Positions 8,837 to 25,738 of a stretch of DNA of 64,000 nt are shown here, one piece after another. Below the pieces are notes generated by a model. The model worked only from the letters and a program-made list of their open reading frames with translations. It did no database searches and was not told the DNA's origin. The translations under genes were made by a program, and so were the position numbers. Every line of letters starts with the position of its first letter. Within the stretch, counting starts at the first letter, position 1. The stretch comes from Kibdelosporangium persicum (GTDB lineage Bacteria; Actinomycetota; Actinomycetes; Mycobacteriales; Pseudonocardiaceae), in NCBI RefSeq assembly GCF_013280595.1, contig NZ_JAAATY010000007.1, forward strand, positions 124,001 through 188,000. The letters are read 5' to 3'.

Positions 8837-8878
8837 GTGTGACGACTCAGTGAGCGGAAAACCGCTGGTCAGTCACAC
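8837..8878 (+). other. Hairpin between sensor kinase and response regulator genes
   Basis: Nested inverted repeat with outer arms GTGTGAC/GTCACAC and inner arms AGCGG/CCGCT. It could lower read-through into the regulator gene or stabilise the upstream mRNA. Confidence 0.4.
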
Positions 8879-8995
8879 GGCGGACGCGTCCCGTTCCGAT
8901 CGGTGGTCAAGCGCGCCCGAATACCGCCCGGATGGGCTCGTGGGAGACACTGTTCGGCGGTAGGCCGGACGAGCCGGCCCCGTGAGGCTGTCGAG

Positions 8996-9673
8996 ATGAT
9001 CAGGGTTTTGGTGGTCGAGGACGACCCCGTAGCCGCCGACGCGCACCGGCTCTACGTGGAGCGGGTGGCGGGCTTCTCGGTGTCCGGAGTCGCCCACACC
9101 GGGGCGGAGGCGAAGCGGTTCGTCGAGCAGCACCCGATCGACCTGCTCCTGCTGGACCTCTACCTGCCGGACGCGCACGGCCTGCAGATCAGCCGCGCGT
9201 TGCGGGCCGCCAACCCGAACATCGACGTCATCGCGGTGACGTCCGCGCGTGACCTGGCGATGGTCCGGGCCGCGGTGTCCGCGGGCGTGGTGCAGTACCT
9301 GCTGAAACCCTTCACGTTCGCGACCCTGCGCGACAAACTGGAGCGCTACGCCCAGTTCAGGAACACCGTCACCGCCGCGGGGGAGGCCGCGGGCCAGGCC
9401 GACGTCGACCGCGCGCTGGCCACGCTGCGCGGCACGGACGGCATCGGCCTGCCGAAGGGCATGAGCGCGGACACCCTGGACTCGGTGGTCGCCGCGCTGC
9501 GGGAGACCCCGGAAGGCCTCTCCGCGGTGGGCGCCGCGACTGCCGTCGGCATCTCGCGGGTCACGGCCAGGCGCTACCTCGAGCACCTGGCGGACACCGG
9601 CACGGTCGTCCGGCGCCCGCAGTACGGCCAGGTGGGCAGGCCGGAGCTGTTCTACCGGCTCGCGGCCGGCTGA
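8996..9673 (+). CDS. Response regulator, CitB/DcuR family
   Basis: Two-component transcription factor of 225 residues, partner of the upstream kinase. The receiver domain carries acidic ED/DD at 8-10, phosphoacceptor Asp54 in LLLLDLYLPD and Lys in YLLKPF. The C-terminal helix-turn-helix (AVGISRVTARRYLEHLADTG) is of the family that activates dicarboxylate transporter genes. ATG at 8996 is the first codon of the conserved MIRVLVVEDDP start; the ribosome site is weak. Its 3' end converges on the hexosaminidase gene across a repeat-rich spacer. Confidence 0.92.
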   Translation: MIRVLVVEDDPVAADAHRLYVERVAGFSVSGVAHTGAEAKRFVEQHPIDLLLLDLYLPDAHGLQISRALRAANPNIDVIAVTSARDLAMVRAAVSAGVVQYLLKPFTFATLRDKLERYAQFRNTVTAAGEAAGQADVDRALATLRGTDGIGLPKGMSADTLDSVVAALRETPEGLSAVGAATAVGISRVTARRYLEHLADTGTVVRRPQYGQVGRPELFYRLAAG

Positions 9674-11321: not shown

Positions 11322-12184
11322 CCCTTGACCGCTCCTGAAAGTCCGGACGCCAGGTGCCGCTGCACGAAGATGAAGAAGATCAGCACCGGGATCGTCATGA
11401 GTGTCGCGCCGGCCATGATTCCGCCCCAGTCGAGCTCTTCGGGCTTGTAGAACACGCGCATCGCCTGGGGCAGCGTGCGGTTGTCCACATCGGAGAAGAT
11501 CAGCGTCTGCGCGAACAGGAAGTCGTTCCACGCGTGGATGAACGCCAGCACGCTGGTGGCGACCAGGCCCGGCGCGACCAACGGGAACAGCACCTGCCAG
11601 GTGAACCGCAGGCGGCTCGCCCCGTCCAGTGCCGCGGCTTCCTCCAGTTCGGCCGGGACAGCGGCGACGAACCCGCGCAGCATCCAGATCGCGAACGGCA
11701 GGCTGAACGCCAGGTTCACCAGCACCAACGGCGCCAGCTCGTTCAGGCCGAGCGCCGGAACCGCCGAACCCGCCTGCTGGACCATGAAGAACAACGGGAT
11801 GGTCAGCGCCTCGACCGGAACCATCTGGGCGACAAGCAACATCACCAGCAGCACGGTCCGGCCCTTGAACCGGAACCGCGTCAACGCCACCGCGGACAGG
11901 AACGACAGCAGCATCGACAACGCCACCACGCACAGGGCGACGATCGCGCTGTTGACGAAATACCGCCCGAAGCCCTGGGAGTCCAGCACCCGCTCGAAGC
12001 TGTCGAAGCTGGGCGCGAACGTCCACGGCGCCGGGGACTGGATCTCGCCGGCGGGCTTGAACGCCGACAACACCATCCAGTACAGCGGAACCGCCACCAG
12101 AGCCGCGATGACGCAGCAGGCGATCTCGGCGATCAGCCGGCCGGGACGGCGGCGCTTTCTGACTGGGCGACTCACGGTTGCCAT
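11318..12184 (-). CDS. Carbohydrate ABC transporter permease (MalG/DasC-like)
   Basis: Second membrane subunit of a CUT1-family sugar importer, 288 residues with six hydrophobic segments. The cytoplasmic EAA loop is EEAAALDGASRLR. The start overlaps the end of the first permease gene by 13 nt and the stop overlaps the GH20 start, so translation is coupled throughout. No ATPase gene is in the operon, as in Streptomyces das-type systems that use the shared ATPase MsiK; that parallel is inference. The most probable substrate is N,N'-diacetylchitobiose or GlcNAc because of the GH20 partner. Confidence 0.92.
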   Translation of the reverse strand: MATVSRPVRKRRRPGRLIAEIACCVIAALVAVPLYWMVLSAFKPAGEIQSPAPWTFAPSFDSFERVLDSQGFGRYFVNSAIVALCVVALSMLLSFLSAVALTRFRFKGRTVLLVMLLVAQMVPVEALTIPLFFMVQQAGSAVPALGLNELAPLVLVNLAFSLPFAIWMLRGFVAAVPAELEEAAALDGASRLRFTWQVLFPLVAPGLVATSVLAFIHAWNDFLFAQTLIFSDVDNRTLPQAMRVFYKPEELDWGGIMAGATLMTIPVLIFFIFVQRHLASGLSGAVKG

Positions 12185-13116
12185 CCGGACCTCCGTTGCG
12201 TCCGTAGGTACACGACCGTGATCAGCATCAGCAGGATCGTCATCACCACGCCGATCGCCGCGCCCAGGCCGTATTCCTCACCGGCGAACGCCTTCTGGTA
12301 GGTGTAGACGTTCAGCACGAGGTTCTGGCCCGCGATGCCGCCGCCGTTGGTCATCACGTAGATCTGCGTGAAGATCTTGAAGTCCCAGATGATCGACTGG
12401 ATCGTGGCGATCACCAGCAACGGCTTCAGGATCGGCAGGATCACCTGGGTGGCCGTGCGGGTCCACGTGGCGCCGTCCAGCTGGGCCGCCTCGATCACCT
12501 CGGCCGAGATGTTCCTGATGCCCGCGTACATCGTCATCATCACGAACGGGAACGAGCACCAGATGACCTCGGCCGCCACGAGCCCGAACGCCGAAAGCCG
12601 GTCGAAGGTCCAGGAATGCCCCTGCATCCCGAGGATCTCGTTGACCACGCCGAAGTCCGCGTCGAACAGGAACAGCCAGATGTACGAACCGGCCATCGCC
12701 GGAGTCGCCCAGGCACCCAGTGCCGCGAGGAAAAGCAGCATCCGGGGCACGGTCCGGACACGCGTGGCCAGGATCGCCAGACCCGTGCCGACCAGCAGGC
12801 TGCCGATCACGCACACCGCGGCGAAGAGCACTGTGGACACCAGCACGGACCAGAACTGGTCGTCGCCGAACAGTTCGATGTAGTTGTCCAGGCCGATGAA
12901 CACCAACGGTTCGGCGCCGCTGGCCTGTGGCTGGTTGTACTCGTACAACGAGATCTGCACGAGCTGGTAGAGCGGGTACGCCATCAGCGCCAGCAGCAGG
13001 ACCCCGGCGGGCAGCAGATAGAGCGCCGCCGCCCGCCCGTCGCGCTTCTTGCGGACAGGCCGCTGCGGCGCCGGAACCTCCAGTTCGGGCGCCGCAGGGG
13101 CGATCTGGGTCGTCAT
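12172..13116 (-). CDS. Carbohydrate ABC transporter permease (MalF/DasB-like)
   Basis: First membrane subunit of the CUT1 importer, 314 residues. A basic cytoplasmic N-terminus (PVRKKRDGRAAALYLLPAG) leads into TM1, and the EAA loop is EAAQLDGATWTRT. ATG at 13116 overlaps the TGA of the solute-binding protein gene (ATGA), so the frame used by longer in-frame extensions is not needed. It works with the MalG-like permease at 11318 and the binding protein at 13116. Confidence 0.92.
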   Translation of the reverse strand: MTTQIAPAAPELEVPAPQRPVRKKRDGRAAALYLLPAGVLLLALMAYPLYQLVQISLYEYNQPQASGAEPLVFIGLDNYIELFGDDQFWSVLVSTVLFAAVCVIGSLLVGTGLAILATRVRTVPRMLLFLAALGAWATPAMAGSYIWLFLFDADFGVVNEILGMQGHSWTFDRLSAFGLVAAEVIWCSFPFVMMTMYAGIRNISAEVIEAAQLDGATWTRTATQVILPILKPLLVIATIQSIIWDFKIFTQIYVMTNGGGIAGQNLVLNVYTYQKAFAGEEYGLGAAIGVVMTILLMLITVVYLRTQRRSGWQP

Positions 13117-14426
13117 CAGCTTCCGAAGGCCTTGTTCATCTCGGCCGCGGCCGCGTCGGTCGCCGCTTCGAGCGACTGGCCGCCGGTGGCGATCTGCTGG
13201 ATGGCGGTCGGGATGACCGACTGGGCGTCGATCTTGGTCCACGCCGGGGTGGCCGGGACGAACCTCGTGCCCGCCTGCGCGGTCTTCACGAACGGTTCCA
13301 GGGTCTTGTCGGCGCTGGCGACCTGTTCCTGGACGTCCTTGAACGTCGGCAGGTTGCCCATCGCGGTGTACATCTTCTGCTGGTACTTCTTGCCGCCCAG
13401 CAGCTTGATGAACTCCAGCGACAGCGTGTGCTTCTTGCTGGCGCCGAACACGCCGAGCAGGTTGCCGCCGGCGAACGCGGGCGCGATCGAGCCGGAGTCC
13501 TTGCCCGGCAACGGCACCACCGCGTACTTGCCCTTCACCGCACCGGCCTCCACGGCCTTGCGGTTGAAGTCACCACCGATCGTCATGCCCGCCTTGCCGC
13601 CGGCGAACTGCGCCACCGACTGGCTGCCGGTCAGCTGCGCGCACGCCGAAGGCGGGCAGATGTCGTCCTTGAGCAGTTCGGCGTACTGGCGAAGGCCGTC
13701 CCGCGCCTGCTGGCCGTTGATCGACGCCGTCCACTTGTCCCCGTCCTGTTTGGCCAGATCACCGCCGTTGGCCCAGATGTACGGGAAAGCCGCGTAGATG
13801 TACTTGCCGCCGGTGGCGATGCCGTACAGGTCCGGCTTGGCCTGGCGGATCTTGCGGGCGGTCTCGGTCAGCTCCGCCAGGGTCTTCGGCGGCTGCAGGC
13901 CGAGCTCGGAGAACACGTCGGTGCGGTAGTACAGCGCGCGAGTGCCGGTGTACCACGGGATTCCGTACGTCTTGCCCTTCACCTTCGCGGTGTCGAGCAC
14001 CGACGGGATCAGGTCCTTGCTGTCCGTCCAGGCTCCCAGGTCGGCCGTCAGGTCCGCGAAACCGTTGGACGCGGTGTAGCCCGCGAGGTCGGTGTTGCCG
14101 AACTCGGCCACGTCGGGCGAGGAGTTCTTGTCGTTGAAGGCGCCGTTGAACCGGGACGCCCTGCCGTCGACCGGCAGGTACTCCACGGTGACCTTGACCC
14201 CCTGGTGCGCCGCCTCGAACTCCTGCTTGGCCTCGTTGACCACGGCCTCCTTGGGGCCGTTGCTGGCCTCCTGGAACAGCCACACCTTCAGCTCACCGGT
14301 CATCTCGCCGACCGGCTGGCCGGCGTTGCCGGTCTGCTGCGGCTGGTTGTTCGCGGCCTGCGGTGGTCCACACGCGACGACCAGCGCTCCGACAGCGGCT
14401 GCAGCGAGCACACCTTTGATCTTCAT
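13116..14426 (-). CDS. Extracellular sugar-binding lipoprotein of the ABC importer
   Basis: Lipid-anchored substrate-binding protein of 436 residues (SBP_bac_1 family). The signal peptide ends in lipobox VVAC with Cys19, followed by a Gln/Asn-rich linker and the two-lobe binding fold (GELKVWLFQEAS, YGIPWYTGTRALYYRTDVF). It captures oligosaccharide outside the cell for the two permeases encoded downstream. ATG at 14426 has GGAGGAA just upstream. A 17-bp palindromic site at 14438-14454 lies 11 nt before the start and is almost identical to a site before the dehydratase operon. I see no DasR-type dre palindrome here. Confidence 0.93.
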   Translation of the reverse strand: MKIKGVLAAAAVGALVVACGPPQAANNQPQQTGNAGQPVGEMTGELKVWLFQEASNGPKEAVVNEAKQEFEAAHQGVKVTVEYLPVDGRASRFNGAFNDKNSSPDVAEFGNTDLAGYTASNGFADLTADLGAWTDSKDLIPSVLDTAKVKGKTYGIPWYTGTRALYYRTDVFSELGLQPPKTLAELTETARKIRQAKPDLYGIATGGKYIYAAFPYIWANGGDLAKQDGDKWTASINGQQARDGLRQYAELLKDDICPPSACAQLTGSQSVAQFAGGKAGMTIGGDFNRKAVEAGAVKGKYAVVPLPGKDSGSIAPAFAGGNLLGVFGASKKHTLSLEFIKLLGGKKYQQKMYTAMGNLPTFKDVQEQVASADKTLEPFVKTAQAGTRFVPATPAWTKIDAQSVIPTAIQQIATGGQSLEAATDAAAAEMNKAFGS

Positions 14427-14437: not shown

Positions 14438-14454
14438 TTGCGTCTGATGCAACG
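14438..14454. promoter_or_regulatory. 17-bp operator-like site before the sugar ABC operon
   Basis: TTGCGTCTGATGCAACG, an inverted repeat TTGC-N7-GCAA. It matches 15 of 17 bases of TTGCGTATGTTGCAACG at 20729-20745, in the same orientation and at about the same distance (11 versus 14 nt) from a minus-strand start codon. The likely ligand is a repressor shared by both operons; the linked IclR protein at 21911 is the best candidate (inference). Confidence 0.65.
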
Positions 14455-14602: not shown

Positions 14603-15718
14603 TTACCTGAAGGAGACGATGCCGACGTTGTCCACCGTCACCGAACCCGCTGACGTGCCCAGCTTTCCGGTGCCCGGGTCACGGGGCAGCCAGTTGATCG
14701 TGCCGGTGCGTTGGTTGGACACATACACCCAGTTGCCGTTCGGGTGCAGGGTGAAGTGCCGTGGCCACGTGCCACCGGTCGGTGTCGTGCCGGCGAACGA
14801 CAGGCTTTTGCCCTGCTCGCCGACCGTGAAGGTGGCCAGGCTGTCGTGGCCCCGGTTGGAGGCGTAGACGAACCGGCCGTCCGCCGACACCTCGATCTCG
14901 CCGGGGAAGTTCTCCGGCGGCGTGGCGTCGCCCAGCGTGCTGATCACCTGGCCGGGCGTGAACCTGCCCGCCGCCGCGTCCCACGCCGCCACGGTCACCT
15001 CCGACCGCAGCTCACCCAGGATGTAGGCGTACCTGCCGTTCGGGTGGAACGCCAGGTGCCGCGGGCCGAGGCCGACCGGCAGCCTGAGCTGCTGGTTCAG
15101 CTTCAACTTCCCGGCCGTGCCGAGGCTGTACACGTACACCGAGTCCGCGCCGAGGTCGACGGCGACGATCCACCGTCCACTCGGGTCGGTGACGACCTCG
15201 TGCGCGTGCGCGGCACGGTTGTCCCCGGTGTGCTTGACGACATCGGTCACGGCGCCGACCCGCCCGTCGGCCCGCAGCGACAGCACGGAAACGCTGCCGC
15301 TGCCGTAGTTGGCCGCCAGCAAGTGCCTGCCGTGGATGCTGATGTGCGTCGGGTGCGCGCCGTTCACGTCGGCCGAGTTGAGCACCTTCGGCCGCTGCGG
15401 ATCGGCGATCGTGTACGCCGTGACCTTGCCGGGATCGGACTCGATGGTCGAGTACAGAATCCGGCGGTCCCGCGAGTACGTGAACCACGACGGGTCCACG
15501 ATCCCGGGGATGCCGCCGGTCAGGGTCAGCTTCCCGGACACCGGGTCGACGGTGCCGACCGAGAAGCCCGGTCCGACCGGCGGTCCCCAGCTGGTGAAGC
15601 TTCCGATGTAGACAGTGGACACGTTTCTCCCGTACGCCGACGCCGGGACCCCCGTCGCCAGCATCAGCCCGCCTGCTCCGGCCGCGCCGAGGAAGGCGCG
15701 CCGGTTCAACCCGTTCAC
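14603..15718 (-). CDS. Tat-exported lactonase-family beta-propeller
   Basis: Seven-bladed propeller of the lactonase (6-phosphogluconolactonase/YbhE-like, PF10282) family, 371 residues. The N-terminus carries a twin-arginine signal (NRRAFLGAAGAGG) and an Ala-x-Ala site (PASAYG), so it acts outside the membrane. Family motifs include HPTHISIHGRHLLAANYGSGSV, GLGPRHLAFHPNGRYAY and GTWPRHFTLHPNGNWVYVSNQ. GTG at 15718 begins the Tat signal. It is the last gene of an operon with a gluconate-type permease. A role in opening extracellular aldonolactones such as N-acetylglucosaminolactone is inference from that context; a phosphorylated substrate is unlikely outside the cell. Confidence 0.85.
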   Translation of the reverse strand: MNGLNRRAFLGAAGAGGLMLATGVPASAYGRNVSTVYIGSFTSWGPPVGPGFSVGTVDPVSGKLTLTGGIPGIVDPSWFTYSRDRRILYSTIESDPGKVTAYTIADPQRPKVLNSADVNGAHPTHISIHGRHLLAANYGSGSVSVLSLRADGRVGAVTDVVKHTGDNRAAHAHEVVTDPSGRWIVAVDLGADSVYVYSLGTAGKLKLNQQLRLPVGLGPRHLAFHPNGRYAYILGELRSEVTVAAWDAAAGRFTPGQVISTLGDATPPENFPGEIEVSADGRFVYASNRGHDSLATFTVGEQGKSLSFAGTTPTGGTWPRHFTLHPNGNWVYVSNQRTGTINWLPRDPGTGKLGTSAGSVTVDNVGIVSFR

Positions 15719-15746
15719 CGTGTGGAGATCCTCTCTGTGCAGGGTG

Positions 15747-17159
15747 TCAGATGAAGATCATCAAGACCGCGGCCACCAGGAACCCGACCACGGACAAGAT
15801 GGTTTCCAGCACTGTCCAGGTCTTCAGCGTGTCCTTCACCGAGATGCCGAAGTACCGGGACACGATCCAGAACCCGCCGTCGTTGACGTGCGAGGCGATG
15901 ATCGAACCGGCGCAGATGGCGGCGACGATGAGCGCCAGTTGCGGTTGCGTGTAGCCCGCGTTCGCGACGGTCGGGCCGATGATGGCCGCCGAGGCGGCGA
16001 TCGCCGCGGTGGCCGAACCCTGCGCGATCCGCAGGCCACACGAGATGAGGTACGCCGCCACGAGCACCGGCAGGCCGACGTCCGCGAGGGATGTCTGCAC
16101 GGCCTTGCCGATACCGCTGACGGTCAGCACCCGGCCGTAGAACGCTCCGGCGCCGACGACGAGCAGGATCATGGCGACCGGCTTGAGCGAGGCGTTCGCG
16201 ATCGTGGACACCTGGTCGCGGGTCATTCCGCGGCGGTAACCCAGCAACCAGAACGCGAGCAGCACCGAGATGGTCAGCGCGATCGCCGGCGTGCCGAAGA
16301 ACGTGGCGACACCGGCCAGGAACGTGCCCTTGTCCAGGATGATGCTGCCGAACGTGCCGATCAGGATGAGGATCAACGGCGTCGCGATGATCCACACGAC
16401 CGTGCTGAGCCTCGGCTCGGTCTTCGCCGGGGCGGTGGCGGTGCCCGGCTTGTCGCCGGTGACCTTGGTGGCCTCGAGCATCTCCTCGGGCACGTCGATG
16501 TGGATGCGCTTGCCGATCCAGTTGGCGAACACCAGCCCGGCGCCCCACGCCGGGATCGCGCAGATCGCGCCGAACAGGATCACCCAGCCGAGCCCGACAC
16601 CGAGCAGACCGGCCGCGGCGACCGGGCCGGGGTGCGGCGGCAGGAACGCGTGCGTCACCGACAGACCGGCCAGCAACGGCAGGCAGAACAGCAGGATCGA
16701 GCGGCCCGACTGCTTGGCGACCACGTACACCAGCGGCGCGAGCACGAAGATGCCGATGTCGAAGAACACCGGGACACCGAAGATCAGCCCGGCCAGGCCC
16801 ATCGCCAGCGCGGCCCGTTTCTCGCCGAACGCCTGCAACAGCTTGCGGGTCAGCACATGCGCGCCACCGGACGCCTCCAGGATGGCGCCGAGGAACGTCC
16901 CCATCCCGATGATCACGGCGATGTGCCCGAGGATGTTGCCGAACCCGGTCTCGATCAACGATCCCGCGTTGCTCGACTGGATGGAGCCGACCAGCGTCTC
17001 CACCGGGATGCCCGCGGCCAGCGCGGTACCGACGCCGACGATCAGCAACGCGATGAAGGGCTCGACCTTCCACCACATGATCATCGTCAGCAGCAGTGCG
17101 ATACCGACCGCGGCGAGCAGCAACAGCCCACCCGTCGTGTGTTGCAACCAGTCCACCAT
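15747..17159 (-). CDS. GntP-family gluconate/sugar-acid:H+ symporter
   Basis: Inner-membrane proton symporter for aldonic or related hydroxy/amino acids, 470 residues with about 12-14 hydrophobic segments. Family motifs include FGVPVFFDIGIFVLAPLVY, LPPHPGPVAAAGLL, GSATAAIAASAA and SHVNDGGFWIVSRYF. ATG at 17159 has GAGGGAG 7 nt upstream, and the gene starts 13 nt after the aldolase stop. GntP proteins move gluconate, ketogluconates and sometimes D-serine. Here, flanked by deacylase, dehydratase, KDPG aldolase and lactonase genes, N-acetylglucosaminate or glucosaminate are reasonable substrates (inference). Confidence 0.9.
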   Translation of the reverse strand: MVDWLQHTTGGLLLLAAVGIALLLTMIMWWKVEPFIALLIVGVGTALAAGIPVETLVGSIQSSNAGSLIETGFGNILGHIAVIIGMGTFLGAILEASGGAHVLTRKLLQAFGEKRAALAMGLAGLIFGVPVFFDIGIFVLAPLVYVVAKQSGRSILLFCLPLLAGLSVTHAFLPPHPGPVAAAGLLGVGLGWVILFGAICAIPAWGAGLVFANWIGKRIHIDVPEEMLEATKVTGDKPGTATAPAKTEPRLSTVVWIIATPLILILIGTFGSIILDKGTFLAGVATFFGTPAIALTISVLLAFWLLGYRRGMTRDQVSTIANASLKPVAMILLVVGAGAFYGRVLTVSGIGKAVQTSLADVGLPVLVAAYLISCGLRIAQGSATAAIAASAAIIGPTVANAGYTQPQLALIVAAICAGSIIASHVNDGGFWIVSRYFGISVKDTLKTWTVLETILSVVGFLVAAVLMIFI

Positions 17160-17172
17160 AGGACTGCTCCCT

Positions 17173-17811
17173 CTATTGTTCAGTGACACGCGCGGTGGCT
17201 ACCGCGTCGACGAACTCGCCGGCCCGCTGCCGGATCTCGGCCAGCCGGGACTCGGCGGCCAGTGCGGGTGAGACCACGCCGCTGCCCGCGGTGACCGCGA
17301 GCGCGCCGGCTTCCAGGTACTGCGCGGCGTTGGCGGTGGTCAGGCCGCCGGTCGCCACCAGTGGCACGCCAGGGTAGGGCCCGTGCAGGTCCTTGAAGTA
17401 CTCAGGACCCAGCCGCGCCGCCGGGAACACCTTGACCGCGGTGGCGCCCATGTCCACGGCGTCGGCCACTTCGGTCGGGGTCATCGCCCCGAGCACGACC
17501 GGCACGCCCTGCCGGACCGCCTCCTCGGCCACCTTGGGCCGCAAGCCGGGCGTCAGCAGGAACTTCGCGCCCGCGTTGACGGCGTCCCGGGCGTCCTGTC
17601 CGGTCATCACCGTGCCCGCGCCGAGGATCAGACCGTCCACTTCGGCCGCCTGTTCCATCAGCCGTGGCGCGTCCGGCGTGGTGAACGAGAACTCCACGAT
17701 CGGCAGGCCGGCCTCGACCAGGGTGCTGCCCAGAGCGGCCGGGTCGGCGATCCGCGGAGCCCGGATGATGCACAACGAACGCCACGCCCTGAGCTCGGCG
17801 ATGAGGTCCAT
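17173..17811 (-). CDS. eda: 2-dehydro-3-deoxyphosphogluconate (KDPG)/4-hydroxy-2-oxoglutarate aldolase
   Basis: Class I aldolase that splits KDPG into pyruvate and glyceraldehyde-3-phosphate in the cytoplasm. The 212-residue protein has the Schiff-base Lys127 in TAVKVFPA, catalytic Glu40 in IVEFSFTTP, Arg17 in IIRAPR and the phosphate-binding ATGGLT loop. It starts 3 nt after the deacylase stop and ends 13 nt before gntP, so it is mid-operon. With the PfkB kinase encoded divergently at 20857 it gives a complete lower KDG pathway. Confidence 0.93.
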   Translation of the reverse strand: MDLIAELRAWRSLCIIRAPRIADPAALGSTLVEAGLPIVEFSFTTPDAPRLMEQAAEVDGLILGAGTVMTGQDARDAVNAGAKFLLTPGLRPKVAEEAVRQGVPVVLGAMTPTEVADAVDMGATAVKVFPAARLGPEYFKDLHGPYPGVPLVATGGLTTANAAQYLEAGALAVTAGSGVVSPALAAESRLAEIRQRAGEFVDAVATARVTEQ

Positions 17812-17814
17812 GGA

Positions 17815-19404
17815 TCAGACTCCCGGGTTACGCAGCGAATGACCGGGTGTGGCGCCCGTGTGGGTTCCGTCGTCGATCACCGGGACCCCGTTGACCAGCA
17901 CGTACGGAATGCCGGTCGCGACCTGCCTCGGCTCGTCGAAGGTCGCGGTGTCGGCGACGGTGTCCGGGTCGAACAGCACCAGGTCCGCGGCGTAGCCCTC
18001 GCGGATCAGACCCCGGTCGGCCAGGCGCAAACGGTTGGCGGCCCGGCCGGTCAGGTGCGCGACGCACTCCTCGAGCTCCAGAACGCCCAGCTCACGGACG
18101 TAACGGGCGAGGTAGCGGGGGAACGTGCCCCATGCGCGGGGATGTGGACGCTCACCGACGAGGAGTCCGTCGCTGCCGCCGGTGTGCGCCGGGTGCTTCA
18201 TGATCGCCTGGACGTTGTCCTCGTGACCGACGTGCATCAGGCACGAGGTACCCATTCGCTCGTCGATCAACACGTCGAAGTACAGGTCCGCGGGCGGCCG
18301 CCCGGCCTGCCGTGCCGACTCGGCGACGCTGTGCCCCACCAGGTGCGAGTTCGCGTCCTTGCGGACGCCGTTGATCTCGATGGAGTCCCAGTCGACGGGA
18401 ACGCCGTGGCAGCCGTCGGACCCGTTCTCCTCCAGGTCGGCACGGATCTTCTCGCGGGTGTCCGGATCGGACATCCGGGCGATCGCGGCGTCCGGGCCGC
18501 CTTCGGTCGACCAGCTCGGCAGGAGCGCGGACAGATAGGTCGCGCCAGGCAGGTACGGGTACGTGTCCAGGGTGATGTCGCAGCCGTCCGCGATCGCCTC
18601 GTCCAGCAGGGCGAGCAGTTCAACGCCGCGGCCCTTGTTCACCGGGAAGTTCATCGTCGCGTGCGCCAGGTGCAGCGGGCAGCCGGAGCGGCGGGACACG
18701 TCGACCATCTCGGCGTACGCCTCCAGCGCGCCCGCGCCGTAACTGCGGTGGTGCGGGCTGTAGTAGCCGCCGAGCTTGCCGGTGACCTCGCACAACGCCA
18801 CCAGCTCGTCGGTGTCGGCGTACATGCCCGGCGTATAGGTCAATCCGGACGAAAGGCCCATCGCGCCCTCGCGCATGCCCTGCGCGACAACCTCTTTCAT
18901 CCGGTCCATTTCGGACTCGGTCGGCGGCCTGGCCGCCCAGCCGACCACCATCATCCGGATCGTGCCCTGTGGCAGCAGGTACGCCGCGTTCACCGCGATG
19001 CCCTGGTCGAGCCGGTCGAGGTACTCGCCGACACTGCGCCAGTTCCAGTCGAACCCGGGCGGATCGTCGTTCCAGCCCGCCAACTGGGCGCGCAGCCCGG
19101 CCAGTGTCTCGTCGTTGACCGGCGCGTACGACAGGCCGTCCTGGCCGTAGACCTCACTGGTCACGCCCTGCGACACCTTGGCGAGGTGGTCGGGTTTGGC
19201 CAGCACCTGCAGGTCCGAGTGGGAGTGCATGTCGATGAACCCGGGCGCGAGCACCAGGCCACGCGCGTCGATCACGCGGGTGGCGTCCAGTCTCCGGCCG
19301 GTCGCGATCTCGGCGATCCGGCCGGACTGCACGCCGACGTCCGCCTGGTAACGCGGGGCGCCGGTGCCGTCGACGACCGTCGCGCCGCGGAACGCAATAT
19401 CCAT
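17815..19404 (-). CDS. N-acyl-D-amino-acid deacylase (amidohydrolase)
   Basis: Zinc amidohydrolase of 529 residues that removes N-acyl groups from D-amino acids. Signature segments are the metal-binding PGFIDMHSHSD, EVYGQDGLSYAP, GLSSGLTYTPGMYADTDEL, LAHATMN, and the C-terminal HTGGSDGLLVGERPHPRAWGTF with the catalytic Asp. The start follows the dehydratase stop by 14 nt. In this operon the substrate could be N-acetyl-D-glucosaminate, a 2-amino acid of D-configuration, giving glucosaminate for the next enzyme; the family assignment is firm and the substrate is inference. Confidence 0.9.
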   Translation of the reverse strand: MDIAFRGATVVDGTGAPRYQADVGVQSGRIAEIATGRRLDATRVIDARGLVLAPGFIDMHSHSDLQVLAKPDHLAKVSQGVTSEVYGQDGLSYAPVNDETLAGLRAQLAGWNDDPPGFDWNWRSVGEYLDRLDQGIAVNAAYLLPQGTIRMMVVGWAARPPTESEMDRMKEVVAQGMREGAMGLSSGLTYTPGMYADTDELVALCEVTGKLGGYYSPHHRSYGAGALEAYAEMVDVSRRSGCPLHLAHATMNFPVNKGRGVELLALLDEAIADGCDITLDTYPYLPGATYLSALLPSWSTEGGPDAAIARMSDPDTREKIRADLEENGSDGCHGVPVDWDSIEINGVRKDANSHLVGHSVAESARQAGRPPADLYFDVLIDERMGTSCLMHVGHEDNVQAIMKHPAHTGGSDGLLVGERPHPRAWGTFPRYLARYVRELGVLELEECVAHLTGRAANRLRLADRGLIREGYAADLVLFDPDTVADTATFDEPRQVATGIPYVLVNGVPVIDDGTHTGATPGHSLRNPGV

Positions 19405-19418
19405 TTCGGACTCCTTTG

Positions 19419-20714
19419 TCAGAAATAAGTCCGGATGAAGTCGACCACGGTCTCACCGTCCGCGCCGACCGCGGGAAGCAGTTGCCACTTGTCGAACACC
19501 GTGCACGGGTGCGAGAGGCCAAGACCGATCCAGTCGCCGACCTGGACGCCGGCCCCGTTCGGGACGAGGTAGGCGTGCTGGTCGTTGAGCGAGACGATCT
19601 CCGCGCCGGTCAACGGCCGGGTGGTGCCGTCCCGCCGGATCAGTTGCGGCTCCGGCAGCCCTTCGTCGAAGGACGCGTCCCGCTTGCCGATGGTCAGCAG
19701 GGCGAGGTTGTCCTCGGGCTTGGACGTGACCTGCGCCCACGCGCGCAGTGCGCTGCGCAAACTCGGCGTTCCTTCGATCCGGGAGTGCGCGCCGAGCGGG
19801 GAGTTCTCCCGGTAGAAGCCGTCGTCGTGGGTGACGTACGCGCCGCTTCGCAGCAACGGGAAGACATTCAGGCCCTCGGGCCACGGCTGGGTCAGCGCGT
19901 CGGCGACGTGGTCGAAGTACGCGCTGCCGCCGACCGTGACGATCACCCGGTCGCGGTCCTCGAACTTGCCGGCGAGCTGGACCGTGACGGCACGGATCTG
20001 GGTGAGGAAGTCGTCGATGGCCTTGAGGCCCTCCGCGGAGGCCTCGTGCGCCAGCGATCCCTCCCACCCGGCGGTGCCGACGAGCTTGAGCACCGGGCTG
20101 GCGACGATCGCGCCGGCGACCGCCTCGGCCGTCTCCGGCGTGCGCGCACCGGTGCGGCCGCCGGGCGCCCCGACCTCGACGAAGACGTTGACCTGGCGTT
20201 GCGCGCCCCGCAGACCTTCGGTCATCAACTCGACCGCGCGGACCGAGTCGGCCCAGCAGAAGAACTCGAAGTCCGGGTCGGCGGCCAGTTCGGCGGCCAG
20301 CCAGCGCAGGGCGTTCGGGTCGACCAGCTGGTTGGCCAGCAGGATCCGGCTCACGCCGAACGCGCGGTAGACCCGCAGCTGGCTGGCGTTCGCGGTCGTG
20401 ATCGCCCAGCAGCCTGCGTCGAGCTGGCGCTGGAACAGCTGCGGCGCCATCGTCGTCTTGCCGTGTGGTGACAGTGCGAGACCACGCGATTCGCACCAAC
20501 GGCGCATGGTCGCCAGGTTGTGGTCGATGGCATCGTTGTCGAGCACGACCAGCGGGCCGACGAAGCCGTCGGTGAACAACTTCGGGTTCGTGGCCAGTGC
20601 CTCGGCCACGGTCCTGCCGAACAGCGCGTCCGGCATTCCCTTGAAGCGCCAGTCGATCCGCTCCTGGCGGAGGCGGTCCACCGCGTCCCGGTCCATGCTC
20701 GCCGGCTCGGCCAT
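19419..20714 (-). CDS. Fold-type III PLP amino acid dehydratase (D-serine dehydratase/D-glucosaminate dehydratase-like)
   Basis: Cytoplasmic PLP enzyme with an alanine-racemase-like N-terminal barrel and a DSD1-type C-terminal domain, 431 residues. The PLP Lys86 is in SPHGKTTM; the metal-binding His-x-Cys is in GLSHPCTVF. The family eliminates ammonia from D-serine, D-threonine or D-glucosaminate. ATG at 20714 has GAGAGG upstream; in-frame ATGs further up fall inside the 17-bp operator at 20729. It is the first gene of the dehydratase-deacylase-aldolase-permease-lactonase operon. With KDG kinase and KDPG aldolase nearby, D-glucosaminate dehydratase (product KDG) fits better than D-serine deaminase. 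Confidence 0.82.
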   Translation of the reverse strand: MAEPASMDRDAVDRLRQERIDWRFKGMPDALFGRTVAEALATNPKLFTDGFVGPLVVLDNDAIDHNLATMRRWCESRGLALSPHGKTTMAPQLFQRQLDAGCWAITTANASQLRVYRAFGVSRILLANQLVDPNALRWLAAELAADPDFEFFCWADSVRAVELMTEGLRGAQRQVNVFVEVGAPGGRTGARTPETAEAVAGAIVASPVLKLVGTAGWEGSLAHEASAEGLKAIDDFLTQIRAVTVQLAGKFEDRDRVIVTVGGSAYFDHVADALTQPWPEGLNVFPLLRSGAYVTHDDGFYRENSPLGAHSRIEGTPSLRSALRAWAQVTSKPEDNLALLTIGKRDASFDEGLPEPQLIRRDGTTRPLTGAEIVSLNDQHAYLVPNGAGVQVGDWIGLGLSHPCTVFDKWQLLPAVGADGETVVDFIRTYF

Positions 20715-20728
20715 CTCCCTGCCTCTCA

Positions 20729-20745
20729 TTGCGTATGTTGCAACG
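20729..20745. promoter_or_regulatory. 17-bp operator-like site in the dehydratase/kinase divergent promoter
   Basis: TTGCGTATGTTGCAACG with TTGC/GCAA half sites, 14 nt before the dehydratase start and in the intergenic region shared with the PfkB kinase. It is the partner of the site at 14438-14454. It is placed to control both divergent operons. Confidence 0.65.
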
Positions 20746-20856
20746 GCTATTGCGCGATGTGCTGCGGTGGTGTGTAGCATCCTCATCGCCGCCAGGTCAA
20801 CGTCGCAACTTCGAGCCCCCGTGCCGGCAGTGTCCCTTCATCTGGCTGGGGAAAGG

Positions 20857-21837
20857 ATGGGAAACCCAGTGGAGACCGATGTGCTGTGCCTCGGCGAGTC
20901 CATGGCGCTGTTCGTGCCGGGCGAGCCGGGACCGGTGGACCAGGTCCGCACGTGGATCCGGACCGTCGGTGGCGCGGAGTCCAATGTGGCCTGCAATCTG
21001 GCGATGCTGGGCCTGCGGGCGAAGTGGGTGAGCGCCGTCGGCCAGGACGCCTTCGGCAAGGCCGTGGTCTCCGCGGTGGCGTCGCACGGGGTGGACGTGT
21101 CCGGAGTCGTGGTCGATCCCGCCCGGCCGACCGGGCTCTACATCAAGGAGAGCAGCGCGGGCGGCAGCCCGGTCCGGTACTACCGGCGCGGTTCGGCCGC
21201 GTCCGGAATGGGCCCCGCGTTGCTCGGTGACCTGGACCTGAACGTCCGGGTGGTGCATCTGACGGGCATCACGGCCGCGCTGTCCGACTCGTGCCTCGAC
21301 CTGATGCGTGCGCTGGTCGCGGCGCCCCGGAACACTTTCCGGCTCTCGTTCGACCTGAACTGGCGGCCCGGGCTGTGGACCGGCCGGGACACGTCCGTGC
21401 TGCGGGAACTGGCCGATTCGGCGGACATCGTGCTCGCTGGTGACGACGAGGCACTGGACGTGTGGGGGACGAGTGACCCTGCCGAGATCCGCCGTATCCT
21501 GCCCGGCCCCGCCACCGTGGTGGTGAAACACGGCGCCCGCGGCGCGACGCTGATCGAAGGCGGTGTTTCGGTGTTCCAGCCCGCTTTACGCGTCGACGTC
21601 GTCGAGCCGGTCGGCGCGGGCGACGCCTTCGCGGCCGGGTTCCTCGCCGCGACACTGGCGGGGGAGTCACCCGTCCGCCGGCTCCGATCCGGACACTTGC
21701 AGGCCGCCACGACATTGCGGACGCATGATGATGTCGGGACACCGCTGCCGCCCGGCCTGATGACGTCGTTGCTCGACGCGGACGCGGACGAGTGGGCCGC
21801 CGCACACCTGACCGAGCAGGGGGTTTTACAGCCGTGA
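20857..21837 (+). CDS. PfkB-family sugar kinase, probable 2-keto-3-deoxygluconate kinase
   Basis: Ribokinase-fold kinase, 326 residues, phosphorylating KDG to KDPG if the context is read correctly. Motifs are the N-terminal VGGAESNVACNLAMLG and the C-terminal PfkB signature GAGDAFAAG with the catalytic Asp. ATG at 20857 follows GGGGAAAGG closely; GTG at 20869 (in frame) is a possible alternative and would begin at the conserved ETDVLCLGESM. It is transcribed away from the dehydratase operon and precedes the IclR regulator and RidA genes. Confidence 0.85.
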   Translation: MGNPVETDVLCLGESMALFVPGEPGPVDQVRTWIRTVGGAESNVACNLAMLGLRAKWVSAVGQDAFGKAVVSAVASHGVDVSGVVVDPARPTGLYIKESSAGGSPVRYYRRGSAASGMGPALLGDLDLNVRVVHLTGITAALSDSCLDLMRALVAAPRNTFRLSFDLNWRPGLWTGRDTSVLRELADSADIVLAGDDEALDVWGTSDPAEIRRILPGPATVVVKHGARGATLIEGGVSVFQPALRVDVVEPVGAGDAFAAGFLAATLAGESPVRRLRSGHLQAATTLRTHDDVGTPLPPGLMTSLLDADADEWAAAHLTEQGVLQP

Positions 21838-21910
21838 GCGCGCTTGCGAACGAACCATCCGACACAGGGCCCGGCTCATGCGACGCGAGCGGGCACAGCG
21901 GGGAGCGGGC

Positions 21911-22654
21911 ATGAGCCAAAGTCTCGACAGGGCGTTGACCTTGCTCGACGCGCTGGCCGAAGGGCCTCGCACCCTGGACCAGCTCGCCGAGACCATCGGC
22001 GTGCACAAGTCGACCGTCCTGCGGTTGCTGCGGACGCTCGAAACGCATCGGTTCGTCCAGCGTGAGGGCGTGCGTTACTACCGGCTCGGCACAGCCCTGT
22101 TCGACCTCGCACACCGGTCCCTTGAGGACCGTGACGTCCGCCGGAGCGTCGAACCCGCGCTACGCGAGCTGAACGCGCAGACCGGCCACACCGTGCACCT
22201 GGCTTCGTACGAGGACGGCGAAGTCGTGTACATCGACAAGTTCGAGAGCCGCCACCAGGTCCGGATGTACTCCAGGATCGGCAAACGAGCCGCGCTGCAC
22301 TGCACGGCCGTCGCCAAGGTGCTGGTGTCGGCGTTCCCCGAGGATCGGCGCCGCGAGATCGCCAACGGCATCACGTACGAGAAGAAGACCGAGAACACAA
22401 TCCTGACGCCCGAGGCGTACCTCGCCGAACTGGCGACCGTCGCCTCGCGCGGGTACGCGGTCGACAACTCCGAGCACGAGGACTTCATCCACTGCATCGC
22501 CGCGCCCGTGCGAGGACCCCGAGGCGAGGTCCTCGCGGCCATGTCGCTGTCGGTGCCGAAGGTACTGTTGGACCTTGACGGGTTGCTGGGGCTAGTGCCC
22601 GACCTGCTGCGCGCGGCGGAGAAGGCGTCCGCCGAATGCGGATATCACCGATAG
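21911..22654 (+). CDS. IclR-family transcriptional regulator 1
   Basis: A 247-residue repressor/activator with an N-terminal winged helix (LDQLAETIGVHKSTVLRLLRTL) and a C-terminal effector domain (VVYIDKFESRHQVRMYSRIG, AVAKVLVSAFPE, FIHCIAAPVRGPRGEVLAAMSLSVP). ATG at 21911 has GGGGAG 5 nt upstream. It sits between the KDG-type kinase and ridA and is the best candidate to bind the paired sites at 14438 and 20729. IclR proteins commonly sense small carboxylates and sugar acids such as KDG. Confidence 0.9.
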   Translation: MSQSLDRALTLLDALAEGPRTLDQLAETIGVHKSTVLRLLRTLETHRFVQREGVRYYRLGTALFDLAHRSLEDRDVRRSVEPALRELNAQTGHTVHLASYEDGEVVYIDKFESRHQVRMYSRIGKRAALHCTAVAKVLVSAFPEDRRREIANGITYEKKTENTILTPEAYLAELATVASRGYAVDNSEHEDFIHCIAAPVRGPRGEVLAAMSLSVPKVLLDLDGLLGLVPDLLRAAEKASAECGYHR

Positions 22655-22666
22655 GAGAGGACAAAC

Positions 22667-23044
22667 ATGGCCAGGACCTTCATCCACCCCGAGGGCACCG
22701 TGAAACCGGCGGTGCCGCTGTCGCACGGGGTGCGGAAGGGCAACATCCTCCAGGTCGCCGGCCAGGTGGCGTTCGACGAGCAGGGTGAGGTGGTCGGCCG
22801 GACCGTGGCCGAGCAGACCCGCCAGGTGCTGGCGAACGTCAAGCGGGTGCTGGAAGCGGGCGGCGCGTCCCTCGACGACGTGGTGATGCTGCGCGCGTAC
22901 CTGACCGACGTGGCGCACTTCGCCGAGTTCAACGAGGCGTACGCCGAGTTCCTCGGCGGCGACTTCCCGGCCCGCACAACGGTTTACGTCGGCCTGCCGC
23001 CCGGCCTGCTGGTCGAGATCGACGCGCTCGCCGTGGTGGACTGA
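22667..23044 (+). CDS. RidA/YjgF-family enamine/imine deaminase
   Basis: Small cytoplasmic trimeric protein (125 residues) that hydrolyses reactive enamine/imine intermediates released by PLP dehydratases. The RidA signature is near the C-terminus (FPARTTVYVGLPPGLLVEIDALAV), including the conserved substrate-binding Arg and terminal Glu. AGGAGAGG precedes ATG at 22667. Its position downstream of the IclR gene, opposite a PLP dehydratase operon, fits a role in finishing or detoxifying dehydration of an amino sugar acid. Confidence 0.93.
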   Translation: MARTFIHPEGTVKPAVPLSHGVRKGNILQVAGQVAFDEQGEVVGRTVAEQTRQVLANVKRVLEAGGASLDDVVMLRAYLTDVAHFAEFNEAYAEFLGGDFPARTTVYVGLPPGLLVEIDALAVVD

Positions 23045-23057
23045 GTACTGCCCGGGA

Positions 23058-23087
23058 TGATCGGGCTCGCTTCGGCGGGCCCGATCA
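23058..23087 (+). terminator. Terminator hairpin after ridA
   Basis: Arms TGATCGGGCTCGC and GCGGGCCCGATCA flank a TTCG tetraloop (one G-U pair). It lies between the convergent ridA and second iclR genes. No strong T-run follows. Confidence 0.75.
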
Positions 23088-23110
23088 CCCGAACACGCAC
23101 CGCGAGGCGG

Positions 23111-23932
23111 TTACTCGCGGGGGATCTCGGCGGGCACCTTGGCCGAGCCGAACACCCGGGAGATCTCCATGCCGAAGCGCATGACAAGCGGGCCGACCTC
23201 GCGCACCCGGGCCGGTTTCATCCGGGAAGCCAGCGACGACACCGAAAGCGCGCCGATCACCTCGTCGCTGTGGTCGAAGATCGGCGCCGCCACGCACCGG
23301 ACTTCCTCTTCGTTCTCACGGTCGTCGATGGCGTAGCCGCGGCGGCGGATGCGTTGCAGGTCCGCACGTAACGACTCAGGGTCGGCCAGAGTACGGCCGG
23401 TCACCGGTGCCAGACCACGGTCGATGGCGGCCTGGACCGCTTCCTCGGGCAGCCACGCGAGAATCGCCTTCCCCACCGCTGTTCGATAAGCGGGCACCCG
23501 GTTGCCTATCCGGGAGGCCATCCGTACCTGGTGGTCGTTCTCGACCTTGTCGATGTAGACAACGTCCGGCGGCTCGTACACCACTAGATGACAGGTCTCA
23601 CCCAGCATGCGTTGCATGCGCCGCAACGGCTCCGCCGCGACGGTGCGCAGGTCCAACGACGCCAGGTAGGCCTGGCCGAGGCGCAAAGCGCCGTGGCCCA
23701 GGCGGAACCAGCCGGTCTGCCGGTCCCGGATGAGCAGGTTCGTGTCGAGCAGGGGAGTTGTCAGGCGCAGCACGCTGCTCTTGCTGATCTTCAGGTCCTC
23801 GGCGATACGTGACAGCGGGACACCGCGGGTCTCGTTCGCCCGGTCGGACACGTACTGGAGTACCGAAAGCGCGCGTCGTAGTGACGACGACTGGTTACGC
23901 GAACTGGGCTGACTGGACACAGTGTGAAGCAT
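23111..23932 (-). CDS. IclR-family transcriptional regulator 2
   Basis: A 273-residue regulator: N-terminal winged helix (LSRIAEDLKISKSSVLRLTTPLLD) and C-terminal ligand domain (VVYIDKVENDHQVRMASRIG, AYRTAVGKAILAWLPEE, VRCVAAPIFDHSDEVIGALSV). ATG at 23932 has no good ribosome site; in-frame ATG at 23983 and GTG at 23920 are alternatives. It is divergent from the FAD oxidase and convergent with ridA, so it may control the oxidase. It is only distantly like the IclR protein at 21911. Confidence 0.88.
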   Translation of the reverse strand: MLHTVSSQPSSRNQSSSLRRALSVLQYVSDRANETRGVPLSRIAEDLKISKSSVLRLTTPLLDTNLLIRDRQTGWFRLGHGALRLGQAYLASLDLRTVAAEPLRRMQRMLGETCHLVVYEPPDVVYIDKVENDHQVRMASRIGNRVPAYRTAVGKAILAWLPEEAVQAAIDRGLAPVTGRTLADPESLRADLQRIRRRGYAIDDRENEEEVRCVAAPIFDHSDEVIGALSVSSLASRMKPARVREVGPLVMRFGMEISRVFGSAKVPAEIPRE

Positions 23933-24073
23933 GACACGTGGTCTGGACCTGTTACGGCGACAACACGACTTTTTGCACTGCACAACAACCTGATCAACTC
24001 ATGGCACGGCTGACCTGGGCGGTGGTCGTCTGGAAGGCGCTGGGGGTTGCACGCTCGAAGGGGTGACTATCCA

Positions 24074-25738
24074 ATGAGTGAGGTCGGACGCCGGAGTTTT
24101 CTGGCGGGAGCGGGGGCCGCGGCTGTGGGGGTCGCGGCGACGGGCACGCTTGGCGGCACGGCGGTGGCGCGGGAATCGGAGGCTGGTGTCAGCCTTCCCG
24201 CCACCACAGTGCGGCCGGGCGACTCGAGATACGTCGACATGGTCCGGGGCACCAATCCACGCTGGATCGGGACGCCGGAAGCGGTCCACGTGGTCAGCTC
24301 GACCGCGCAGGTCGTTGCGGCGGTTCAGGAAGCGGTGACCGCGGGCAAGCAGATCGGGGTGCGTAGCGGCGGCCACTGCTACGAAGACTTTGTTTACAGC
24401 GGGAAACAAGTCGTCCTCGACTTGTCCGAGTTGGACGGCATCGGCTACGACCCGGCGGTGAACGCCATTTCGGTCGGCGCGGGTGCGAACCTTTTTCAGG
24501 TTTACGAGGCGCTGTACCGGGTTTGGGGCGTCATCATCCCGGGCGGTTCGTGCGGCACGGTCGGCGCGGGCGGCCACATCACCGGCGGCGGTTACGGTCT
24601 GAGTTCCCGCCAGTTCGGACTTACCGTGGACTACCTCTACGGCGTCGAGGTCGTGGTGGTCGACGCGTCCGGCCGGGCGCGGGCGGTCATCGCCACGAGG
24701 GAGGCCGACGATCCCAACCGGGATCTCTGGTGGGCGCACACCGGCGGTGGCGGCGGCAACTTCGGTGTGGTGACGCGGTTTCTGCTGAAGTCCCGAACCG
24801 CGACGGGCACCGACCCGGCCACGTTCCTGCCGAAGCCGCCGTCCGAGATCTTCATCAGCTCGGTGGCGCTGGACTGGAAGGACATCACCGAGGCGGACTT
24901 CACCAGGGTGGTGGACAACTTCGGCAAGTGGCACGAGCTCAACAGTGCGCCGGGTTCGCCGTACGCCGGGCTTTTCGGTCTGCTGAAGCTGAACAAGCGG
25001 ACCGTCGATCCCGTCACCAAGGCGGTCGGCGGCCAGGTCGCCCTGCTGACCCAGGCCGACGCGACCGCGCCGAACGCACGGAAACTGCTCGACGACTACC
25101 TCGCGGCGGTCTTCGACGGCGTCCAGGCGCGGCGCACCGCGATGACCGCACGGTCCGGCGATCACCCGGCGCTGCCGCAGTTCGCCGAGCCGCAGCGGTT
25201 GCCGTGGCTCAACGGCACGTATGCCCTGAGCGGTGGTGGTTGGGAGTTCCGCGCCGACTACAAGTCCGCGTACCTGCGCAAGGGGCACACCGCCGAACAG
25301 ATCGCCGCGACCTACCGGGCGTTGGCGACCACGGAGTACAACAACCCCAACGCGTTGGTGCAGATCGACTCGTACGGTTGCCAGATCAACGCTGTCGGTT
25401 CGGCGGACACCGCTGTGCCGCAACGTGATTCCGTGTTGAAGTTGCAATACCAGGTCTACTGGAAGGACCCGGCCGAGGAGGCCCAGCACCTCCACTGGTT
25501 CCGCACCTTCTACTCGTCGGTGTACGCGTCGACCGGTGGCGTGCCGGTGCCCAACGCGGTGACGGACGGCTGTTACGTGAACTACCCGGACATCGACCTG
25601 TCCGATCCGACCTTCAACAAGTCCGGCGTGCCGTGGTCGACCTTGTATTACAAGGGAAACTACGCGCGTCTGCGGCAGGTGAAGGCGAAGTACGACCCGC
25701 GTAACGTGTTCCGGCACCGCCAGTCGGTCGAGTCCTAA
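24074..25738 (+). CDS. Tat-exported berberine-bridge-type FAD oxidase
   Basis: Secreted flavoprotein oxidase of 554 residues (FAD_binding_4 plus C-terminal BBE domain). The twin-arginine signal is GRRSFLAGAGAAAVG. Both residues for bicovalent FAD are visible: His in GVRSGGHCYEDF and Cys in GGSCGTVGAGGHITGGGYG. The C-terminal YKGNYARLRQVKAKYDPRNVFRHRQS is the BBE motif. Relatives oxidise sugars, chito-oligosaccharides or sugar moieties of antibiotics outside the cell, releasing H2O2. Lying next to the amino-sugar-acid genes, oxidation of GlcNAc or chitobiose at C1 is a reasonable guess, but the true substrate is open. The stop overlaps the end of the truncated SnoaL-like gene. Confidence 0.85.
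   Translation: MSEVGRRSFLAGAGAAAVGVAATGTLGGTAVARESEAGVSLPATTVRPGDSRYVDMVRGTNPRWIGTPEAVHVVSSTAQVVAAVQEAVTAGKQIGVRSGGHCYEDFVYSGKQVVLDLSELDGIGYDPAVNAISVGAGANLFQVYEALYRVWGVIIPGGSCGTVGAGGHITGGGYGLSSRQFGLTVDYLYGVEVVVVDASGRARAVIATREADDPNRDLWWAHTGGGGGNFGVVTRFLLKSRTATGTDPATFLPKPPSEIFISSVALDWKDITEADFTRVVDNFGKWHELNSAPGSPYAGLFGLLKLNKRTVDPVTKAVGGQVALLTQADATAPNARKLLDDYLAAVFDGVQARRTAMTARSGDHPALPQFAEPQRLPWLNGTYALSGGGWEFRADYKSAYLRKGHTAEQIAATYRALATTEYNNPNALVQIDSYGCQINAVGSADTAVPQRDSVLKLQYQVYWKDPAEEAQHLHWFRTFYSSVYASTGGVPVPNAVTDGCYVNYPDIDLSDPTFNKSGVPWSTLYYKGNYARLRQVKAKYDPRNVFRHRQSVES

Follow-up and report, generated by a model that had tools for sequence, protein, structure and literature searches.

Genome analysis of a Kibdelosporangium persicum locus suggests a separately assembled actinobacterial operon for chitin oxidised by lytic polysaccharide monooxygenases

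A gene cluster of Kibdelosporangium persicum (assembly GCF_013280595.1) that joins a D-amino-acid-type deacylase and dehydratase to sugar-acid enzymes, a permease and an exported lactonase raises the question of which substrate it serves and by what route that substrate arrives. The window analysed here is a stretch of 64,000 nt (forward-strand positions 124,001-188,000 of contig NZ_JAAATY010000007.1); positions below are window coordinates, and the region under study, 14603-25738, was extended here to 9825. The first-pass annotation had named nine genes in that region, all of which were confirmed by profile matches (Table 1), and had proposed a route in which an amino sugar is phosphorylated late, via glucosaminate and 2-keto-3-deoxygluconate (KDG); that route remains the preferred reading, and the locus has the classes of enzyme known from the ong pathway. 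The locus is probably a separately assembled actinobacterial operon for chitin oxidised by lytic polysaccharide monooxygenases (LPMOs).

In the proposed route, AA10 LPMOs outside the cell would leave chito-oligosaccharides ending in N-acetylglucosaminate (GlcNAc1A) or its 1,5-lactone, and a lactonase exported by twin-arginine translocation (Tat) would open the lactone. Short oligosaccharide acids would be imported by an ATP-binding cassette (ABC) transporter and split inside by a GH20 enzyme into N-acetylglucosamine (GlcNAc) and GlcNAc1A, while free GlcNAc1A would enter through GntP. The deacetylase would take the acetate off GlcNAc1A to give glucosaminate, which a pyridoxal 5'-phosphate (PLP)-dependent dehydratase, assisted by RidA, would convert into KDG and ammonia; a PfkB kinase would form 2-keto-3-deoxy-6-phosphogluconate (KDPG), and an aldolase would yield pyruvate and glyceraldehyde-3-phosphate. 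An IclR regulator would bind an operator ahead of the core genes and, in close relatives, ahead of the ABC-GH20 genes. If this is correct, the carbon and nitrogen in the oxidised ends of chitin would enter metabolism without NagA/NagB, along a route for which the deacylase serves as a marker in 25 of the 396 genomes sampled; it would involve a second deacetylase family, a regulator and a lactonase step, the last of which goes unmentioned in the ong papers.

The conservation of the neighbourhood was examined in loci fetched with the window dehydratase (the best 80 of 248, among which the window's own genome may be absent; eight of the 80 are shorter than 20.5 kb), a gene being counted as present when its best match exceeded 38% identity over more than 40% of the query. 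Judged by their record titles, 78 of the 80 belong to genera that we take to be Pseudonocardiales. The deacylase was found in 78 loci, IclR in 79, RidA in 78, GntP in 70 and PfkB in 66, and since these genes and the dehydratase recur together across the 80 loci, their clustering is beyond chance. The core genes were also found in Tsukamurella, in Arthrobacter and in a genus with large genomes, labelled g9. A variable set comprised the lactonase (38 loci), GH20 (33), ABC permease 2 (33), the KDPG aldolase in place (9) and a flavin adenine dinucleotide (FAD) oxidase (5). The loci L004, L030 and L001 closely resemble ones from Kibdelosporangium or Lentzea, and their records, labelled Rhodococcus rhodnii, Nocardia sp. 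NRRL S-836 and Actinosynnema sp. respectively, may be misnamed. Two plasmid records (L090 and L092), in which the dehydratase lies beside amino-acid ABC genes, were set aside as a different context.

The front half of the route is most likely made up of LPMO, lactonase, ABC transporter and GH20 rather than the FAD oxidase. The operon had been drawn from 20714 down to 14603; its genes stand, and its extent does not, the ABC and GH20 genes (9825-14426) having been missed. Beyond the lactonase, after a gap of 176 bases, a binding lipoprotein, two permeases and GH20 follow on the same strand, and these genes touch or overlap, the GH20 start (11321) overlapping the permease end by 4 nt. All 33 GH20-bearing loci also had the lactonase and ABC permease 2, and only five loci had the lactonase without GH20 (Fisher 1.6e-17 for the GH20-lactonase association over the 80 loci, whose lineages are not independent). 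That ABC and GH20 genes travel with the lactonase thus indicates chito-oligosaccharide acids from LPMOs as the imported material. The N-terminus of the GH20 protein (MTGFEGLLPRP) has no signal peptide by eye, and the enzyme is therefore predicted to be cytoplasmic. Relatives of the ABC binding protein in the PDB are oligosaccharide-binding proteins, the best being the acarbose/maltose-binding GacH, while 7ehp, which binds chitin oligosaccharides, matches less well (9.4e-16); against the NCBIfam models, every match was far under its cut-off. Those of the lactonase include 6igb, the periplasmic gluconolactonase PpgL. A Tat-like start was seen on 26 of the 38 lactonases in a narrow look and on 35 in a wider one, which can catch chance upstream arginine pairs, while four from Actinokineospora (L018, L048, L054 and L055) had no signal by eye.

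At this front end the first-pass annotation had placed the oxidase, which would make the lactone of GlcNAc (or chitobiose) outside the cell, to be opened by the lactonase and imported as the acid by GntP, with no role for LPMOs. Such an arrangement is unlikely: GH20 occurs in 33 of the 80 loci, always with the lactonase and the ABC permease, whereas the oxidase occurs in five (counted at the locus only; L025, L029 and L062 lack most of the oxidase-side flank), and the expected company of lactonase and oxidase with the operon gave a split result, the former accompanying it in 38 loci and the latter in five. In L002, which otherwise retains the operon, the second IclR gene is present and has no oxidase beside it. 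Furthermore, no operator-like site (see below) lies near the oxidase, the nearest having three mismatches and falling within the second IclR gene, and an oxidase-led route leaves ABC and GH20 unexplained. The oxidase as a core member was rejected on its presence in five of the 80 loci.

The suggestion that an oxidase of this berberine-bridge-enzyme type may act on chito-sugars did gain some support. Its start (RRSFLAG) is of Tat type, and by eye GGHCYE and GGSCG offer a His and a Cys that could bind the flavin at two points. Among solved structures, antibiotic-tailoring oxidases come closest to it, and NagOx, the N-acetyl-D-hexosamine oxidase of Ralstonia (PMC9850908; this paper, PMC9537276 and PMC12017989 are cited here from portions of their text), ranks sixth; overall it is nearer to TamL and Dbv29 than to NagOx. 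In the alignment to NagOx (7zzk), however, Q381, D383, Q410, Q412 and Y414 are present (QID, QYQVY), a set missing from the aligned stretches of TamL, CrmK, Dbv29, GilR and AknOx, and the protein is 76-89% identical across the five loci having it. It is thus likely a carbohydrate oxidase, and because its active-site letters fit NagOx it was retained as a possible accessory. The divergent placement of PfkB, IclR and RidA with the oxidase beyond was borne out, except that RidA and the oxidase are separated by a second IclR gene (23111-23983), which had been overlooked. The oxidase and this divergent IclR (23111-25738) look like a module of two genes that stands apart; they occur jointly in five of the 80 loci, all close relatives.

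The back half, from glucosaminate through KDG, is an already known pathway, published in Nat Commun in 2022: in the ong pathway of Pseudoalteromonas prydzensis, N-acetylglucosaminate is converted via glucosaminate and KDG to KDPG, with an AA10 LPMO as the source (PMC9537276). The ong clusters listed there are from Gammaproteobacteria and one Betaproteobacterium, and the structure of the OngB deacetylase has been solved (PMC12017989). For comparison, ong loci were fetched from four Gammaproteobacteria, two with annotation (L124 and L126) and two others (L125 and L127). With the ong pathway the window has in common GH20, a deacetylase of the D-aminoacylase superfamily, a fold-III PLP deaminase, RidA, a KDG kinase (for the window, at family level only) and an AA10 LPMO in the genome; a KDPG aldolase is shared with the Vibrio, Klebsiella and Serratia versions (PMC9537276). 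In contrast, the window has GntP, ABC and IclR where ong has SSS, TonB and RpiR, and it differs in a GH20 without signal peptide, an exported lactonase, an actinomycete host, a deacetylase of another branch with other pocket residues than OngB, and a dehydratase outside the OngC clade.

A lactonase-family gene follows GH20 in two of the four ong loci, three of which have GH20, and the two belong to different Pfam families: in the Vibrio locus a PF10282 lactonase lies 77 bases after GH20, and in that of P. piscicida GH20 is followed after 7 bases by a protein of the SGL family whose start looks like a signal. The annotated loci L124 and L126 list no lactonase, and the word has no occurrence in the main texts of the two ong papers (PMC9537276 and PMC12017989). 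With the hydrolytic NagA/NagB pathway for GlcNAc and DasABC uptake of chitobiose the window shares the layout of an ABC transporter with an intracellular GH20; there, however, a sugar is taken up and phosphorylated at the outset, whereas the window substrate would be a sugar acid. Another route also ends at KDPG, as the window's does, with phosphorylation before deamination and a different PLP fold.

The chitin context was assessed from LPMO genes, which are common among soil actinomycetes. The window's own genome has six PF03067 (AA10 LPMO) genes over the cut-off. In a phylum sample of 396 genomes (own included; deacylase counted at no less than 55% identity), the 25 deacylase-bearing genomes and the 29 with PF03067 overlapped in 22, against the 29 of 396 overall; by genus, the figures were 4 of 6 versus 8 of 246 (p 7e-6). 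The own genome also contains a second, das-like ABC and GH20 operon (L198 4994-10205) beside a gene that is GntR-like by eye, likely the ordinary chitobiose system. Among the matches listed in the openly licensed literature, no paper was found on the fate of LPMO-oxidised chitin products in actinomycetes, and the portion of a Streptomyces venezuelae chitin paper that was available has no occurrence of aminoacylase, gluconate or oxidized.

A physical tie between deacylase and GH20 was found in genome G230 (L201 6542-9853), where the two form a single open reading frame of 1103 aa with both Pfam domains. This natural fusion ties the substrate of the deacylase to the product of GH20. Its neighbours are the dehydratase, RidA, two genes of the ROK family, and NagB, a match above its cut-off; NagB would use the second product of GH20. 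Of 79 genomes from the actinobacterial genus of G230, 16 (including L204-L213) match the fusion over at least 92% of its length, 14 of them without an internal stop; the fusion was not seen in the Microbacterium plasmid L214. In the 396-genome sample, the dehydratase adjoins 24 of the 25 deacylases. The sole close deacylase without it (L203) adjoins a DgaE-like PLP lyase (under the model cut-off), a KDG-kinase-like protein and a KDPG aldolase; L203 also holds two galactonate-dehydratase superfamily genes and a second D-aminoacylase-like gene.

The residues of the deacylase were compared in a table of 42 rows in PpOngB numbering (L069 was dropped as too short). All 34 aligned window-type deacylases have Asp97, Thr193, Tyr226, Thr254, Asn256 and Thr292, whereas the corresponding residues in three OngB proteins are Cys, Ala, Glu, Lys, Ala and Ser; at the OngB metal site Cys97/His222/His252, the window deacylase has Asp97, His and His. 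L191 and L192 share the window signature, and L190 (G266) has His254. Among other relatives, Glu226 and Lys254 are kept in L128-L130 and L194-L197, and Ala254 is found in L165-L167 and L193. The deacylases of L163 and L164 (37-38% identical) have Asp193, Gly226, His254 and Asp or Glu256; they lie in a similar cluster of dehydratase, kinase, aldolase, IclR and RidA, perhaps for a sister substrate. A tree of 22 sequences chosen from 107 (L165-L167 and L193-L197 left out) gave one 100/100 split: OngB, AfDam and BbDam fall on one side, and on the other the window clade is joined by proteins of haloarchaea and Cetobacterium. Long branches lead to BbDam and L130, and the root is a midpoint only. The window deacylase as an ortholog of OngB was ruled out by its residues and its branch, and it was likely recruited separately from the gammaproteobacterial OngB. 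On balance, we lean toward the view that Actinobacteria assembled an oxidative chitin pathway independently, with a convergent second GlcNAc1A deacetylase family (Thr193, Tyr226, Thr254, Asn256) within the D-aminoacylase superfamily, GH20-fused in one lineage, and with a lactonase as an unrecognised step that opens LPMO products in several bacterial lineages.

The same residues bear on two other substrates. Degradation of N-acyl-D-amino acids (D-serine, D-threonine and similar) by the operon, with kinase and aldolase serving other ends, appears very improbable. The deacylase and dehydratase families are indeed named after D-amino acids, the deacylase scores D-aminoacylase 1m7j (1.2e-79) above PpOngB 9kb1 (3.8e-61), and in related Actinobacteria (L159-L161) the dehydratase occurs without a deacylase or kinase nearby; but a divergent PfkB of KDG-kinase type in 66 of the 80 loci, a KDPG aldolase within the operon in nine, GH20, the sugar ABC transporter and the deacylase-GH20 fusion all speak against such a role, and the deacylase pocket departs from characterised D-aminoacylases at 226, 254 and 256. 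A different 2-acetamido sugar acid (for example that of N-acetylgalactosamine or N-acetylmannosamine), or action of the deacylase on the lactone or a disaccharide acid, is quite unlikely as well. It would agree with the loss of Lys254 from the window-type deacylases and with the Thr or His there in L163, L164 and L190-L192, with the bifunctionality of the best kinase models, which cover KDG and 2-keto-3-deoxygalactonate (KDGal), and with the direct fusion of deacylase to GH20, whereas LPMO co-occurrence and likeness to ong clusters favour chitin; it departs from an operon for oxidised chitin in one substrate only.

The dehydratase is about 34% identical to OngC of L124. In a tree of 25 sequences chosen from 118 (L065 was then left out), the four OngC proteins formed their own clade, outside which the window protein falls, and cluster-borne and stand-alone dehydratases were intermixed.

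With regard to regulation, a strongly conserved block lies between the dehydratase and kinase genes in L001-L006. Between these two genes, TTGCGTNTGNTGCAACG is exact at 20729, and it recurs exactly at 14438, where 11 bases separate it from the downstream start of the ABC gene. A scan of the 10.35 Mb genome with TTGCRTNTNNTGCAACG gave two exact sites, both in this locus, and two one-mismatch sites elsewhere (one within a long reading frame that is glycosidase-like by eye, one adjoining a recombinase-like gene), with none for the reversed-pattern control. Both positions are kept in L001-L006 with 0-1 mismatch, the pre-ABC site being exact in five and one mismatch away in one, and L033 has it with two mismatches. 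Close to the start of the dehydratase gene, 40 of the 80 loci have a site with no more than two mismatches, versus 10 such sites across the other 1.62 Mb. Judged from its position, IclR1 would be the protein that reads this operator-like site. A wider regulon taking in the LPMO genes was rejected, both exact sites being at this locus. A scan for sigma-70 promoters and terminators gave nothing beyond chance.

Several of these observations weigh against an operon for oxidised chitin. The lactonase is missing in 42 and GH20 in 47 of the 80 loci (some cut short), and the core therefore works without them. In OngB and D-aminoacylases the carboxylate of the substrate is bound by Lys254 (PMC12017989); this residue is Thr in the window deacylase and lost in all 34 of its type, and the OngB specificity residues Gln298/Ser292 are replaced by Leu/Thr, position 298 adjoining a long insertion that makes the alignment less sure; binding of the putative substrate GlcNAc1A therefore does not follow from homology to OngB. 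OngC is also active on D-serine and D-threonine (PMC9537276). The best NCBIfam matches of the kinase (KDG/KDGal kinase model, 153.5 of 400 bits) and of the IclR regulator (KdgR, 179.4 of 275 bits) are both under cut-off. As for LPMOs, 19 of the 22 genomes with both deacylase and PF03067 are of one genus, three of the 25 deacylase genomes, including the fusion-bearing G230, have no PF03067 match, and large soil genomes may hold both genes for other reasons; the six LPMOs, assigned by family, could cut chitin or cellulose. The 17-mer was derived from the two window sites, so that its exact match is partly by construction; of the 30 loci whose binding protein is a close one, seven (L001-L006 and L033) have the pre-ABC site and the other 23 do not, and no site with at most one mismatch was found near any LPMO gene in the genome scan. 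In addition, a longer three-part pattern at two mismatches gave six genome matches versus 19 for its reversed control, and another longer pattern gave 11 versus 29.

Table 1. Features of the K. persicum locus in window coordinates, with predicted functions.
Feature	Position	Strand	Basis
GH20 beta-N-acetylhexosaminidase	9825..11321	(-)	PF00728 1.4e-110; best solved relative 3rcn beta-N-acetylhexosaminidase
Sugar ABC permease 2	11318..12184	(-)	PF00528
Sugar ABC permease 1	12172..13116	(-)	PF00528; start placed at 13116 within longer open reading frame
Sugar ABC solute-binding lipoprotein	13116..14426	(-)	PF13416/PF01547
Operator-like TTGCGTCTGATGCAACG	14438..14454	(+)	exact site, 11 bases upstream of ABC binding-protein start
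Tat-exported 7-bladed lactonase (predicted)	14603..15718	(-)	PF10282 1e-97; TIGR01409 Tat signal 21.6 bits, cut-off 16.7
GntP-family permease	15747..17189	(-)	PF02447 1.9e-120; TIGR00791 362.9 bits, cut-off 292.75
KDPG aldolase	17173..17811	(-)	PF01081; TIGR01182 eda 158.8 bits, cut-off 156.05
Predicted N-acetylglucosaminate deacetylase, D-aminoacylase superfamily, not OngB-type	17815..19404	(-)	PF07969 (Amidohydro_3); residue tables, tree
Predicted glucosaminate dehydratase, fold-III PLP	19419..20714	(-)	PF14031, PF01168; 3gwq D-serine deaminase 6.5e-79
Operator-like TTGCGTATGTTGCAACG	20729..20745	(+)	exact site between dehydratase and kinase genes
PfkB kinase, predicted KDG kinase	20857..21837	(+)	PF00294 2.9e-47
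IclR-family regulator (IclR1)	21878..22654	(+)	PF01614, PF09339
RidA, OngD counterpart	22667..23044	(+)	PF01042
Second IclR regulator, divergent from oxidase, peripheral	23111..23983	(-)	PF01614
Tat-type exported FAD carbohydrate oxidase (predicted), peripheral or accessory	24047..25738	(+)	PF01565, PF08031

Outside the locus, a dicarboxylate symporter adjoins a sensor kinase and a response regulator at 5788-9673 (named by eye). Two similar repeat-bearing lipoproteins, likewise recognised by eye, lie at 3228-3872 and 26200-27121, the second of them after the oxidase.

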